This document shows, piece after piece, positions 46,716 through 59,319 of a stretch of DNA of 64,000 bases. The stretch is from contig JAFRLY010000044.1 in the NCBI GenBank assembly GCA_017431005.1, forward strand, positions 62,001 to 126,000. The letters run 5' to 3'. Under the pieces are notes generated by a model. That model had not been told where the DNA came from and ran no database searches. It saw nothing but the letters and a program-made list of their open reading frames with translations. Numbering within the stretch: the first letter of the stretch is position 1; the number at the start of each line of letters is the position of its first letter. The position numbers and the translations under genes were made by a program. Source of the stretch: Clostridia bacterium (GTDB taxonomy: Bacteria > Bacillota > Clostridia > Christensenellales > Aristaeellaceae).

Positions 46716-46760
46716 GAAAACAAAAAGAGGCAGGGGCGCCGTTTACAGGACGCCCTTGCC
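46716..46760 (-). terminator. leader terminator of asnB-guaA
   Basis: On the minus strand, 12-nt arms (46760-46749 and 46740-46729) pair with one mismatch and a G-T pair around an 8-nt loop, followed by TCTTTTTGTTTT. The hairpin begins about 13 nt after the -10 box, so it would end most transcripts near +50. Its 5' arm contains CAAGGGCGTC, shared with three other leaders of this locus. Confidence 0.8.
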
Positions 46761-46772
46761 TTGATGGCAGGT

Positions 46773-46801
46773 ATGGTATCATTCCGCCGCGGGCTTGTCA
46801 A
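46773..46801 (-). promoter_or_regulatory. sigma-70-type promoter of asnB-guaA
   Basis: Minus-strand TTGACA (46801-46796) and TACCAT (46778-46773), spacing 17 bp, with a TG two bases before the -10 region (extended -10-like). Confidence 0.8.
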
Positions 46802-46853
46802 GAACGGCACGGGCGAAACGAAAGGCAGTACAAAGGGAATACAATCCGGACGC

Positions 46854-46882
46854 TTGACAGCGGTTCAGGCCGGTGATAATAT
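46854..46882 (+). promoter_or_regulatory. sigma-70-type promoter of glnA
   Basis: TTGACA (46854-46859) and TAATAT (46877-46882) are 17 bp apart, divergent from the asnB promoter about 50 bp away. No sigma-54-type GG-N10-GC promoter was seen. Confidence 0.85.
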
Positions 46883-46894
46883 GCGCCCATCAGG

Positions 46895-46936
46895 ACAAGG
46901 GTGTCGTGGATGCGATACGCCTTGTTTTTCTTTTTA
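46895..46936 (+). terminator. leader terminator of glnA
   Basis: ACAAGG pairs with CCTTGT and GTGTCG with CGATAC (one G-T pair, a bulged G at 46919) around the hexaloop TGGATG (46907-46912), followed by TTGTTTTTCTTTTTATT. It starts 12 nt after the -10 box. The 5' arm carries CAAGGGTGTC. The glnA ribosome site (GAGGAGG) follows 20 nt later. Confidence 0.8.
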
Positions 46937-46959
46937 TTGATGATGAGGAGGTCGGAACG

Positions 46960-48291
46960 ATGAGTAAGTACACGAAAGAGGACATTATCCGCCTGGTCCG
47001 GGAGGGTGACGTGGAGTTTATCCGGATGCAGTTCACCGATATTTTCGGTCAGCTGAAGAACGTGGCGATTACAGCCAGCCAGATTGAGAAGGCGGTCAAT
47101 AATGAAATCATGATCGACGGGAGCAGCATCGAGGGCTTCGTGCGGATCAATGAAAGCGATCAGTACCTGCATCCCGATCTGGACACCTTCACAATTCTGC
47201 CCTGGCGTCCGCAGCACGGCAAGGTGGCCCGGCTGATCTGCGACGTGTACAACCCCGACGGAACGCCCTTCACCGGCGATCCCCGCGGCGTGCTGAAGAA
47301 GGTGCTGCAGCGGGCGGCGGACATGGGCTATTCCTTCAACGTCGGGCCGGAGTGCGAATTCTTCCTCTTCCAGACAGACGAGGAGGGCAGGCCCACCACG
47401 ACCACGTCGGACGAGGCCGGGTATTTTGACCTGGGCCCGCTGGACCACGGCGAGAGCACCCGCCGGGAGATCTGCATGGCGCTGGAGCAGATGGGCTTCG
47501 AGATCGAGGCCAGCCATCACGAGGTGGCCGCCGGCCAGCACGAGATCGACTTCCGCTACGCGGATGCCCTGACGTCCGCGGACAATATCATGACCTTCAA
47601 GCTGGCGGTTAAGACGCTGGCCCAGAAGAACGGCCTGCACGCGACCTTCATGCCCAAGCCCGTGTTCGGCATCAACGGCAGCGGCATGCATACCAATATG
47701 AGCCTGTTCCGGGACGGGAAGAACGTTTTTGCGGACCCGTCGGACAGGCGCGGGCTCAGCAAGGAAGCCTATTCCTTCATCGCCGGCATCCTGGCGCACA
47801 TCCGCGGCATGGCGGCGGTCACCAATCCGCTGGTCAACAGCTACAAGCGCCTGGTGCCGGGCTATGAGGCGCCCTGCTACCTGGCCTGGAGCGCCAGCAA
47901 CCGCAGCGCGCTGATCCGCATTCCGGCCGCCCGCGGCATGGGCACCCGGGTCGAGCTCCGCTGCCCGGATCCCTCCTGCAATCCCTATCTGAACATGGCG
48001 GTCTGCCTGGCGGCCGGCCTGGACGGCATCGAGAAGGGTCTGACCCCGCCGGACGAGATTACGGAGAACATTTTCGCGATGGACGCCGCGACCCGCGAAG
48101 CGAAGGGAATCAAATCCCTGCCCGGCACGCTGAAGGAAGCGGTGGAATGCCTGAAGGCGGATCCGGTGATCTGCGGCGTGCTGGGAGAGCATGTGCTGAC
48201 CCAGTATGTGGAGGGCAAGGAAAAGGAATGGGATGCCTACCGGACGCACGTCAGTCAGTGGGAGATTGAACGGTACATCGTTATGTATTGA
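46960..48291 (+). CDS. glnA: glutamine synthetase, type I
   Basis: Makes glutamine from glutamate, ammonium and ATP; the entry point for ammonium here. The 443-aa protein matches the short GSI-alpha form of Bacillus and Clostridia: N-terminal beta-grasp domain with [10 protein letters not shown] and [16 protein letters not shown], the latter containing the Arg equivalent to the feedback-inhibition Arg of Bacillus GlnA. The catalytic domain has [34 protein letters not shown] and [18 protein letters not shown]. The adenylylation-loop insertion of GSI-beta is absent. ATG 46960 follows GAGGAGG at 9 nt; in-frame sequence upstream lies in the leader. Confidence 0.97.
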
Positions 48292-57400: not shown

Positions 57401-57414
57401 ACGCCCTGTCAAGC

Positions 57415-57454
57415 AAGGCGCAAGGGTGTGCGGAACACCCCGGCGCCTTTTTTT
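57415..57454 (+). terminator. leader terminator of the amt-PII gene
   Basis: AAGGCGC pairs with GCGCCTT and GGGTGT with ACACCC around a 5-nt loop, followed by T7. The segment CAAGGGTGTG (57421-57430) matches the motif of the other leaders. A weak alternative pairing of CGCC (57402-57405) with GGCG (57417-57420) would break the terminator. A second hairpin (CTGTGCC / GGCACAG, 57459-57474) precedes the ribosome site. Confidence 0.8.
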
Positions 57455-57496
57455 AATCCTGTGCCCCGGCACAGAGGAAAAAAGGGAGTGAGTTGA

Positions 57497-59218
57497 ATGT
57501 ACTCTGCTGCAAACACGATCTGGGTCCTGCTCGGCGCTGCGCTGGTGTTCTTCATGCAGGCCGGGTTCGCGATGTGCGAGGCCGGCTTTACCCGGGCCAA
57601 GAATACCGGCAATATTCTGATGAAGAACCTGATGGACTTCTGCATCGGCACGCCGCTGTACTGGCTGTTCGGCTTCGGCATCATGTTCGGGGCGGGCACG
57701 GCGGTGTTCGGCTGGATCGATCCCTTTATCATGAAGGATTACGGCGCGGTGCTGCCGGCGGGGGTTCCGCTGTGGGCCTACGCGATCTTCCAGACGGTGT
57801 TCTGCGCCACCTCCGCGACGATCGTTTCCGGAGCCATGGCGGAGCGTACGAAGTTCTCCGCCTACTGCATTTATTCCGCGGCGATATCGCTGTTCATCTA
57901 TCCGGTCAGCGGCCACTGGATCTGGGGCGGCGGCTGGGCGCAGCAGATGGGCTTCCATGATTTCGCCGGCTCCGCGGCGGTGCACATGGTCGGCGGCATC
58001 TGCGCGCTGATCGGCGCGAAGATTCTCGGACCGCGCGCCGGCAAGTACAGCCCGGACGGAAAGCCCCGGGCGATCCTGGGCCACAATCTGAGTATCGCCG
58101 CGCTCGGCGTGTTCATCCTGTGGTTCTGCTGGTTCGGCTTCAACGGCGCCTCCACCGTCGCGATGGACAGCGACGAGGCGATCGGCTCCGCTTCCCTGGT
58201 GTTCTTCAACACGAACCTCGCGGCGGCCGTGGCTACGCTGGCCTGTATGATCTTTACCTGGATCCGCTACGGCAAGCCGGATGTATCGATGACCTTCAAC
58301 GCGGCGCTGGCCGGCCTGGTCGGCATCACGGCCGGGTGCGACGCGGTGAACCCGTTCGGCGCGGCTGTCATCGGCCTGGTGTGCGGCATCCTGGTGGTGC
58401 TGTCGGTCGGCTTCTTTGACAGGGTTGTGAAGATCGACGATCCGGTCGGCGCGATTTCGGTCCATGGCGTGTGCGGCGCGGCGGGAACGGTCCTGACCGG
58501 CCTGTTCGCCACCGGCGGCACAACGATGAAGGGTCTGCTTTACGGCGGCGGATTCAGATTCCTGGGTGTGCAGCTGCTGGGCGTCGCAGCCACAGTCTGC
58601 TGGACGGCCGTGATCATTACGGTCGTGTTTACGGTAATCAGGAAGACGATCGGCCTGCGGGCGGACGCGGCGGACGAGGTCATGGGCCTTGACCGCAGTG
58701 AGCACGGGCTCACGACCGCCTACGCGGGCTTCGCGATCCTGCCGGAGGAGGGAGTATTCACCCTGACCGGCGAGGTACCGCCTGCCTCAGAAACCGCACC
58801 CGCGGGTTCGGCTGAACCGGTGGTGACCGCGAAGAAAGCGCAGAAGGCGCCCGGCGAGCCGGTCTATACCCGTGTGCAGATCGTCTGCCGTCCGGCCAGT
58901 CTGGAGTCCCTGAAGACCGCTATGAATGGCATCGGGATCACCGGCATGACCGTCACGAACGTCATGGGCTACGGCGCGCAGAAGGGCAAGCCGGAGTATT
59001 ACCGCGGCACGCCGGTGGAGGTAACGCTCCTGCCGAAGGTCCAGGTGGACATCGTGGTCAGCAAGGTGCCGGTGGCGCAGGTCATCGAGACCGCCCGGAA
59101 GGTGCTGTACACCGGCCATATCGGCGACGGAAAGATCTTCATTCACGATGTGGAGGATGTGGTCCGTGTCCGGACGGGCGAGACGGGCTACGACGCGCTG
59201 CAGTCGGATGAGGAATAA
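57497..59218 (+). CDS. amt: ammonium channel fused to a PII (GlnK) signalling domain
   Basis: Residues about 1-410 are an Amt/Rh ammonium channel: eleven hydrophobic segments, AGFAMCEAGFTRAKN, DFAGSAAVHMVGG with the first pore His, and HGVCGAAGTVLTGLF with the second. A ~45-residue Pro/Ala-rich linker leads to a complete PII domain (about 453-573): RVQIVCRPASLESLKTAMN, T-loop GYGAQKGKPEYYRG with a Tyr at the uridylylation position, LLPKVQVDIVV and GHIGDGKIFIHDVEDVVRVRTGE (nucleotide site). PII normally is a separate protein that plugs the channel when 2-oxoglutarate is low; fusion makes the plug permanent and local. No separate glnK/glnB is in the window. GGGAGTGA precedes ATG 57497. Confidence 0.92.
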   Translation: MYSAANTIWVLLGAALVFFMQAGFAMCEAGFTRAKNTGNILMKNLMDFCIGTPLYWLFGFGIMFGAGTAVFGWIDPFIMKDYGAVLPAGVPLWAYAIFQTVFCATSATIVSGAMAERTKFSAYCIYSAAISLFIYPVSGHWIWGGGWAQQMGFHDFAGSAAVHMVGGICALIGAKILGPRAGKYSPDGKPRAILGHNLSIAALGVFILWFCWFGFNGASTVAMDSDEAIGSASLVFFNTNLAAAVATLACMIFTWIRYGKPDVSMTFNAALAGLVGITAGCDAVNPFGAAVIGLVCGILVVLSVGFFDRVVKIDDPVGAISVHGVCGAAGTVLTGLFATGGTTMKGLLYGGGFRFLGVQLLGVAATVCWTAVIITVVFTVIRKTIGLRADAADEVMGLDRSEHGLTTAYAGFAILPEEGVFTLTGEVPPASETAPAGSAEPVVTAKKAQKAPGEPVYTRVQIVCRPASLESLKTAMNGIGITGMTVTNVMGYGAQKGKPEYYRGTPVEVTLLPKVQVDIVVSKVPVAQVIETARKVLYTGHIGDGKIFIHDVEDVVRVRTGETGYDALQSDEE

Positions 59219-59234
59219 AATGTATTATAACGTA

Positions 59235-59264
59235 TTGACGGAATGAGCCCTGTTATGGTATGAT
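59235..59264 (+). promoter_or_regulatory. sigma-70-type promoter of glmS
   Basis: TTGACG (59235-59240) and TATGAT (59259-59264), spacing 18 bp, 15 bp after the amt stop. Confidence 0.75.
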
Positions 59265-59275
59265 CCTCTGCGGCA

Positions 59276-59319
59276 GGGCAAGGGGGTCTTGTACGGACTC
59301 CCTTGCTCTCTTTTTATTT
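59276..59319 (+). terminator. leader terminator of glmS
   Basis: A 13-bp stem (59276-59288 with 59296-59308, two G-T pairs) and 7-nt loop is followed by TCTCTTTTTATTT. It starts 11 nt after the -10 box and also contains the shared CAAGGGGGTC at 59279-59288. It may double as terminator for amt read-through. A small hairpin AGAGGC-GGAG-GCCTCT follows before the ribosome site. No glmS ribozyme is present in this ~90-nt leader. Confidence 0.8.

Follow-up and report, generated by a model that had tools for sequence, protein, structure and literature searches.

Single-hexaloop leaders of nitrogen genes in a Clostridia bacterium as predicted targets of ANTAR-mediated antitermination

We analyzed a 64,000-nucleotide stretch of the genome of a Clostridia bacterium (contig JAFRLY010000044.1, positions 62,001 to 126,000; called the window here), in which the nitrogen genes asnB, glnA, amt and glmS each have a promoter that leads directly into an intrinsic terminator. 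A first-pass annotation had noted that the 5' arms of the four terminators share the motif CAAGGGnGT(C/G) and had proposed a trans-acting factor or small molecule that recognizes the nascent 5' arm, with the ANTAR protein encoded in the glnA operon as the obvious candidate. By its sequence, this motif is an ANTAR mini-hairpin, for example GGC[AAGGGN]GYC, with a 3- to 4-bp stem closed by a C-G pair and a hexaloop that has A at position 1 (A1) and G at position 4 (G4). The signal is thus not a novel one, and the ANTAR protein of the operon stands as the likely trans factor. From the sequence comparisons described below, the four leaders are very probably ANTAR-controlled attenuators of a reduced form, in which antitermination would act on one promoter-proximal hexaloop.

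Four leaders carry a hexaloop mini-hairpin inside a terminator

We found the motif at 46758-46749 (minus strand), 46896-46905, 57421-57430 and 59279-59288, exactly where it had been annotated; a fifth match in the window, at 59305-59296 on the minus strand, is the complement of the 3' arm of the glmS terminator itself. Five matches compare with a mean of 1.20 expected, and 1 of 100 shuffles reached five. The distance from the -10 box to the C of CAAGGG is 14 nt for asnB, 13 for glnA, 20 for amt and 14 for glmS, in agreement with the earlier counts. All four leaders have a strong, near-consensus promoter of the sigma-70 type, with -35/-10 spacers of 17, 17, 17 and 18 nt in the same order, and a terminator that begins a few nucleotides past the start site inferred from the promoter consensus. 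Each motif copy forms part of the 5' arm in a stable hairpin that carries a T-run (minimum free energy [MFE], -19.2 to -26.3 kcal/mol; z, -4.1 to -5.6), and the A1 and G4 hexaloop is present in all four. By a rule written after the sites were known, the window contains four instances of promoter, hexaloop mini-hairpin and T-run combined, which are these four sites, and 200 dinucleotide shuffles contain none. As the annotation had noted, the 3' arms of the terminators do vary, and conservation of the 5' arm exceeds what terminator pairing needs: in the predicted folds its sequence is kept despite an A x C mismatch in asnB, an AA/CG internal loop in amt and a bulged base in glnA. The elements of the leaders are as follows.

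46773..46801, minus strand: asnB promoter; -35 TTGACA at 46801-46796, 17-nt spacer, -10 TACCAT at 46778-46773, inferred +1 at ~46766; from sequence and relatives with the same layout
46749..46760, minus strand: asnB leader mini-hairpin GGC[AAGGGC]GUC; from sequence and comparison of genus leaders
46722..46761, minus strand: asnB leader intrinsic terminator; stem 46761-46728, T-run 46726-46722, fold z -4.13
46854..46882, plus strand: glnA promoter; TTGACA at 46854-46859, 17-nt spacer, TAATAT at 46877-46882, inferred +1 at ~46889; from sequence
46894..46905, plus strand: glnA leader mini-hairpin GAC[AAGGGU]GUC; from sequence and comparison of genus leaders
46892..46930, plus strand: glnA leader intrinsic terminator; stem 46892-46928 overlaps the start of the T-run, fold z -4.61
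57372..57400, plus strand: amt promoter; TTGACA at 57372-57377, 17-nt spacer, TACAAT at 57395-57400, inferred +1 at ~57407; from sequence
57418..57431, plus strand: amt leader mini-hairpin GCGC[AAGGGU]GUGC; both stem sides differ from GGC/GYC
57415..57454, plus strand: amt leader intrinsic terminator; fold z -4.33
59235..59264, plus strand: glmS promoter; TTGACG at 59235-59240, 18-nt spacer, TATGAT at 59259-59264, inferred +1 at ~59271; from sequence
59277..59288, plus strand: glmS leader mini-hairpin GGC[AAGGGG]GUC; stem extendable to 7 bp
59272..59315, plus strand: glmS leader intrinsic terminator; fold z -5.59

The element that ANTAR proteins recognize in published systems is a short stem capped by a hexaloop with A1 and G4 (PMC3369931), and selection with NasR recovered A1, G4 and a C:G closing pair (PMC7496416). 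The eut sites of E. faecalis share the consensus AGCAANGRRGCUY across the 5' part of the terminator (PMC3369931). Since the A1/G4 hexaloop and the C-G closing pair match the published determinants, the 10-nt motif is the counterpart of the hairpin called P2 in ANTAR targets. Searches against Rfam reached gathering score neither in the window nor in the loci of 20 relatives, and a permissive Rfam search of 46600-59400 gave three matches, all far under their gathering scores.

Other sequence features lie close to these leaders. Between the asnB attenuator and asnB there is an 18-codon open reading frame with a plausible ribosome site (46644-46700, minus strand), seen at the sequence level and also in a near-identical relative (L052). 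The glmS -35 region (59221-59239) contains TGTATTATAA(C/T)GTATT, which was found in 10 of the 11 glmS regions compared, relatives included, is better conserved than the glmS hexaloop and looks like a site for an additional regulator. Across the -10 box of the amt promoter lies the near-palindrome GTATACAGTATAC (57385-57397), and GTATACAAT at this near-palindrome is found again in several relatives.

The hairpin is conserved within the genus

A search of 61 genomes for the ANTAR protein gave matches in 45. Among 36 other members of the genus, 27 have a match of at least 42% identity, one (G036) has a distant match (28%) and eight have none. From the ANTAR regions of 28 genus members we used 79 regions upstream of glnA, asnB, amt and glmS; 58 of them contain a promoter and a T-run by rule, and the hexaloop is present in 56 of these 58. 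The 21 regions that fail the rule comprise 16 of asnB, 3 of glmS and 2 of glnA. Thirteen of the failing asnB regions come from loci with an aminotransferase gene between glnA and asnB, and in three of the 21 (glnA of L071 and L073, glmS of L069) the motif is nevertheless present, the T-tract having been missed by the rule. A hairpin that persists after the motif is lost, which the first-pass annotation had named as a refuting observation, is found in 2 of 58 genus leaders, both of glmS. What does not hold among relatives is the literal string CAAGGGnGT, which drifts to CAAAGG, CAATGG or CGAGGG; the hairpin and G4 persist.

We built a covariance model (R1) from 53 distinct leaders, the 58 having been reduced to 55 by merging identical sequences and the two glmS leaders lacking the hexaloop having been left out. 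Across these 53 leaders, A2, G4 and G5 are invariant and A1 is present in at least 90%; 158 of 159 stem cells are paired, and the closing pair is C-G in every leader. The outer stem pair is G-C in 37 and C-G in 14, and the middle pair is G-U, G-C or A-U. The C-G flip of the outer pair is found in amt leaders and may be a single event, and the A-U middle pair occurs in both asnB and glnA leaders. In the divergent congener G036, the ANTAR gene adjoins a second, 48%-identical glutamine synthetase (L172 and L080, G036:C37), and the main glnA retains the single-hexaloop leader GGC[AAUGAC]GUC.

The element precedes nitrogen and glutamine genes

In the window's own genome, searched as 3.0 Mb in 63 contigs, R1 found only the four sites, so the motif does not recur at terminators of unrelated genes in the way that would have refuted the original proposal. 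A simpler pattern scan of this genome gave 22 rows at 15 places, compared with 9 rows in a reversed control. Four of the places are these leaders and one is a convergent gene-end terminator (C7:5240); the remaining ten, judged from the matched strings only, have no comparable layout of hairpin and T-run.

The annotation had suggested a covariance search across related genomes, and at E <= 0.1 R1 gave 148 hits in 40 of 45 genus genomes, 144 of them before nitrogen- or glutamine-linked genes. The downstream genes are glnA (36), amt (33, plus 1 at a contig end), an aminotransferase (23), glmS (20) and asnB (15), then a PPDK-like gene (5), purF (4), gltB (2), gltD (2) and pyrG (2), and one each of purA and genes for an N-acetyl-sugar amidotransferase and a GNAT acetyltransferase. 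The figure of 144 leaves out the GNAT and purA hits and two false ones (G034:C16:174835 and G019:C74:3498), which by eye have no hexaloop and have E values above 0.05. The aminotransferase and PPDK-like hits are counted by neighborhood, not by proven function, and 116 hits remain without these 28. For pyrG, purF, purA, the sugar amidotransferase and the acetyltransferase, a single example of each was checked by family; other genes were named by similarity to window proteins or by recognized N termini. Gene content is independent evidence here, as the presence of the loop in R1 hits is not, because the model itself contains the loop.

The PPDK-like gene in the window (54746-57316, between gltD and amt) encodes an 856-aa protein that contains a PPDK-N domain. 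A homologue with an ANTAR-type leader of its own is found in five genus genomes and, by eye, also at the class loci L286 and L295.

From their inferred start sites, the leaders leave no room for a second hairpin

Characterized ANTAR antiterminators have two hexaloop hairpins, P1 and P2, and the annotation had judged the present leaders too short for both. This was borne out in 56 genus leaders, where the stem starts 6 to 13 nt from the inferred +1, with 5 to 12 nt in front of it. The linker between the two hairpins is 5 to 12 nt among the eut genes of E. faecalis (PMC3369931) and 2 to 25 nt in an actinobacterial curation (PMC8164766). Because the smallest hexaloop hairpin needs 12 nt plus a linker, P1 cannot fit before the stem, given these promoters. 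We therefore set the leaders apart as a variant outside the dual-hexaloop class, which is defined by a P1 upstream of P2.

The leaders could still be classical dual-hexaloop targets, as the characterized precedents would have it, if the true start lay 5' of the promoters assumed here and P1 had been overlooked. We consider this very unlikely: the promoters are near consensus, with TTGA(C/A) correctly placed in 137 of 148 genus hits, the stems stand close to their start sites as described above, and a scan of 45 to 60 nt 5' of the -10 boxes found scattered hexaloops, none of them conserved.

A second hexaloop might instead be supplied in trans, by an ANTAR dimer that bridges two nascent leaders, for example those of divergent asnB/glnA or GSIII/gltB-type pairs. 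Divergent leader pairs do recur, as asnB/glnA in the window and as GSIII with a class-II amidotransferase gene in the order and class. In 12 of 13 order and class loci read, the divergent partner leader has another stem, of the AUGAGC or UGAAC type, and precedes a glutamate-synthase-type class-II amidotransferase gene, one of which was checked by family. One EutV dimer also holds the hexaloops of two RNAs in crystals (PMC8934654). On the other side, none of the four window sites is a divergent partner for the amt or glmS leader, and bridging needs both leaders to be transcribed simultaneously, which Walshe et al. judged unlikely (PMC8934654); we too give this arrangement little credence.

Covariation points to RNA, and the terminator is predicted to outcompete the mini-hairpin

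We examined covariation at 72 sites, all but one outside the genus, that were selected for a promoter, C-A-A-N-G..G and a T-run, pairing playing no part in the choice. A stem of at least 3 bp is present in 69 of the 72. The 5-bp stem is 91.7% paired, compared with 72.3% in shuffles, and the covariation score is 0.654, compared with 0.291; stems slid along the sequence are only 34.7 to 50.8% paired. The closing C-G pair was fixed by the selection of sites, and most of the 72 loci came from searches with models that include the inner three pairs. No model contains the two outer pairs, which vary most: they are paired in 66 and 53 of the 72 sites, with 34 and 18 two-sided changes, respectively. 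The second pair is G-U in 38 of 72 sites, which favors an RNA element over a DNA operator. It is accordingly highly improbable that CAAGGGnGT(C/G) is a repressor site just past +1 with an incidental terminator: its constant distance from the promoter and partial palindrome would suit an operator, but the stem sequence varies widely with its pairing kept, G-U pairs are frequent, and all window sites lie in the 5' arm of a terminator.

The MFE structures of 54 of the 56 genus leaders tie up four or more loop bases in the terminator, and the mini-hairpin is formed in none of the 56, so that the two structures are mutually exclusive in these folds. Forcing the mini-hairpin costs about 15 kcal/mol on average. 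Because the MFE terminator takes up the loop bases, we infer that the default state is OFF and that a protein would have to act kinetically.

Hits outside the genus track the ANTAR gene

Over 296 genomes of the order, R1 hit 14, six in the genus and eight outside. Five of the eight are leader-like (before one glnA, three GSIII genes and one membrane protein gene) and three (L191, L192 and L194) are false by eye. A second model, R2, was built from 51 diverse leaders, with four hits left out of the set (two false, one longer, one partial), and hit 47 of the 296 genomes. The ANTAR gene is present in 41 of these 47, compared with 131 of 296 overall (Fisher P, 4e-11), so hits do track the ANTAR gene, a relation that the first reading of the window had proposed to check. 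The association persists (P, 9e-8) when the 11 genomes that belong to the genus or served for training are removed. In the class, 59 of 391 genomes were hit, and 51 of the 59 have the ANTAR gene, compared with 196 of 391 overall (P, 6e-10). The 2x2 counts retain false order and class hits, and the P values overstate independence because the genomes are related. None of the six ANTAR-negative order hits is leader-like by eye, G158 and G205 having a hexaloop-like sequence without a promoter. Among the 43 order hits outside the genus in ANTAR-positive genomes, 31 lie less than 10 kb from the ANTAR gene.

Twenty ANTAR regions of ANTAR-positive genomes without an R2 hit were sampled, and in eight of them (L263, L266, L267, L270, L271, L274, L276 and L278) a looser rule found promoter, hexaloop and terminator, with no credible P1. 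All 28 class hits read have the hexaloop, several without a clear -35 box; 22 precede GSIII (10), pyrG (4), gdhA (2), PPDK-like (2), purF, amt, gatD or Lrp/AsnC genes and 6 do not, as named by eye with a Pfam/NCBIfam check on four. A phylum-wide sample was hit in 8 of 189 genomes, the window's own included; two of the eight hits outside that genome lack the hexaloop, and at least two precede glnA.

At one order locus (L219, G081:C7:10983-11199), two tandem hexaloop-terminators stand before a GSIII gene with a good promoter on the first only, an arrangement that is possibly a two-step attenuator.

A riboswitch for a small molecule such as glutamine, which the glutamine-centered regulon might suggest, is the least probable account, as nothing is conserved past the 12-nt hairpin, Rfam gave no gathering-score match, hits follow the ANTAR gene and the motif equals a known protein target.

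The ANTAR protein and its gene cluster

The cluster reads asnB (minus strand), then glnA, the ANTAR gene, gltB, gltD, the PPDK-like gene, amt-PII, glmS and an LL-diaminopimelate aminotransferase gene, with gltB named from its position before gltD and its sequence rather than from a family-library scan. The ANTAR gene and the putatively controlled genes are the following.

48444..48995, plus strand: ANTAR protein, 183 aa, second gene of glnA-ANTAR-gltB-gltD; Pfam PF03861, 5.9e-17, 61.6 bits
45034..46614, minus strand: asnB, asparagine synthase B (glutamine-hydrolyzing); family matches
46960..48291, plus strand: glnA, type I glutamine synthetase, first gene of glnA-ANTAR-gltB-gltD; family matches
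57497..59218, plus strand: amt, ammonium transporter fused to a C-terminal P-II domain; Pfam and NCBIfam
59357..61225, plus strand: glmS, glutamine-fructose-6-phosphate transaminase; family match

The ANTAR gene is single in the window's genome (one match). Its AlphaFold model (mean predicted local distance difference test score, 86.7) has a receiver-like N-terminal domain and a C-terminal three-helix ANTAR domain. The N-terminal domain has the strand and helix order of a receiver; by eye, and with no structural superposition, it lacks the acidic pair, the acceptor Asp (G54 instead) and the Lys. The closest named match is from a Clostridia metagenome-assembled genome (MAG) of goat omasum (99%), and the other ten matches are from Clostridia or Clostridiales MAGs, one of which bears the label 'Christensenella sp. 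UBA2853'. A search of plasmids gave no ANTAR relative.

Several RNA contacts of EutV are conserved. In EutV numbering, the window protein retains R142, K149, E160 and M172 but carries E, R and H at positions 143, 147 and 164, respectively; across 55 ANTAR sequences, K149 and E160 are present in all and M172 in 54. In the order regions sampled, a single-hexaloop leader stands near 8 of 15 His-type ANTAR genes, compared with 0 of 4 Tyr/Met types, a small set. From these alignments, His164 with an acidic residue or Gln at 143 may mark the single-hexaloop type. The P-II domain fused to Amt (57497-59218) is a possible tie between ammonium sensing and the ANTAR protein.

A proposed mechanism and the observations that weigh against it

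In the mechanism that we consider very probable, polymerase would initiate at the strong sigma-70-type promoter, and within about 20 to 25 nt the nascent RNA could fold the mini-hairpin. Unaided, the RNA would rearrange to form the terminator, which is much more stable and has the mini-hairpin bases as its 5' arm, and transcription would stop at about +45 to +50 (OFF). Active ANTAR protein would capture the emerging mini-hairpin and hold it past the T-run, allowing read-through into glnA, amt, asnB or glmS (ON), presumably under glutamine or ammonium shortage. The sequences themselves show the promoters, the mini-hairpins, the terminators and the mutual exclusion of the two structures, the lack of space for P1 with these promoters, the covariation, the genes in the regulon, the association with the ANTAR gene and the conservation of several RNA contacts; what we infer is that the protein binds, which way control runs, what the signal is and where transcription starts. 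Since glnA and the ANTAR gene are in one operon, an autoregulatory loop is expected.

A number of observations weigh against this mechanism. In published work both hairpins are needed: deletion of P1 reduces eutP induction (PMC3369931), NasR binds P2 alone about 12-fold more weakly (PMC7496416), and in the proposal of Walshe et al., P1 first recruits the protein and then passes it to P2 (PMC8934654). In the protein, Tyr164, which stacks on G4 in EutV, is replaced by His in all 36 genus sequences and in 15 of 19 order sequences; Lys143, one of two lysines that join the second ANTAR domain to the same hexaloop (PMC8934654), gives way to E, D or Q in 35 of the 36 sequences from the genus. In the RNA, loop position 1 is G, not A, in 13 of 145 scored genus hits, including amt leaders, and the glmS leaders of L053 and L055 keep promoter and terminator without the hexaloop, which may mean that glmS no longer belongs to the regulon in these species. 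Co-occurrence is also incomplete. R2 gave no hit in 90 of 131 ANTAR-positive order genomes, and twelve of the 20 sampled regions have no leader even by the looser rule. Eight class genomes have a model hit and no ANTAR match, and at least two of these hits (G376 and G696) look genuine, not all the others having been read. The ANTAR gene was not found in 10 of 12 genus genomes checked, five of which (G005, G023, G027, G034 and G061) still have model hits. Because these ten are incomplete (54 to 85%) and mostly without a close glnA (nine have none, and that of the tenth is cut by a contig end), they neither prove nor exclude dependence on ANTAR.

More tentatively, and with clear doubt, we suggest that Clostridia might possess a global glutamine/nitrogen regulon (GSI/GSIII, GOGAT, Amt, GDH, AsnB, GlmS, PurF and PyrG) built on single-hexaloop ANTAR antiterminators at the transcript start. 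Such elements would do without a recruitment hairpin. A possible reason is that the ANTAR protein, which has His at the position that stacks on the base and in the genus has lost the second-protomer lysines, meets polymerase at or just after promoter escape, without P1-to-P2 transfer.

Meaning and comparison with known systems

As ANTAR antitermination is now understood, it depends on two hexaloops; both were required in vivo, and P1 is thought to recruit the protein in time. The leaders described here form a repeated natural experiment without P1, and by our estimate the protein would have to act while polymerase adds only 10 to 20 nt. Should these leaders prove functional, the requirement for two hairpins would not be universal, and 50-nt templates would allow a direct test of timing. 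They also suggest one RNA-based glutamine/ammonium circuit in many gut and rumen Clostridia, in a form that two-hairpin searches would tend to overlook.

ANTAR control of nitrogen genes is already known (PMC3369931, PMC3369936). In Clostridium thermocellum, the ANTAR gene Clo1313_2030 is the last of a cluster that also contains class-II amidotransferase and glutamate synthase genes, and its expression mirrors that of the cluster under methyl viologen (PMC4676874). A gltD riboswitch candidate of another group is, by its description, not the same element (PMC8632094). In literature searches that did not extend to subscription papers and preprints, we found no published single-hexaloop antiterminator beyond the suggestion in PMC8934654; as far as that search reaches, the regulon-wide, promoter-proximal form predicted here appears to be new.

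The leaders resemble E. faecalis eutP, eutG, eutS and eutA with EutV, nasF with NasR and amiE with AmiR in the A1/G4 hexaloop, the C-G closing pair, the short stem and the place in the 5' arm of a terminator, as well as in having a cognate ANTAR protein in the genome and a role in nitrogen metabolism. Unlike those targets, they have one hexaloop, no P1 and no linker, and the element stands at the extreme 5' end of the transcript. They recall the regulons predicted by Ramesh et al. (2012), for example in Desulfotomaculum, where glutamine/glutamate synthase and ammonium transport genes are under ANTAR RNAs. The set here differs in also including the glutamine amidotransferase genes asnB, glmS, purF and pyrG, and single-hexaloop leaders fall outside the definition of that study because its search model required two hairpins. 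Our findings agree with Walshe et al. (2022), who redefined the minimal binding motif as one hexaloop and expected single-hexaloop sites to exist (PMC8934654). In contrast to their expectation of such sites where polymerase timing is irrelevant, the leaders described here lie inside terminators and are constrained by timing.

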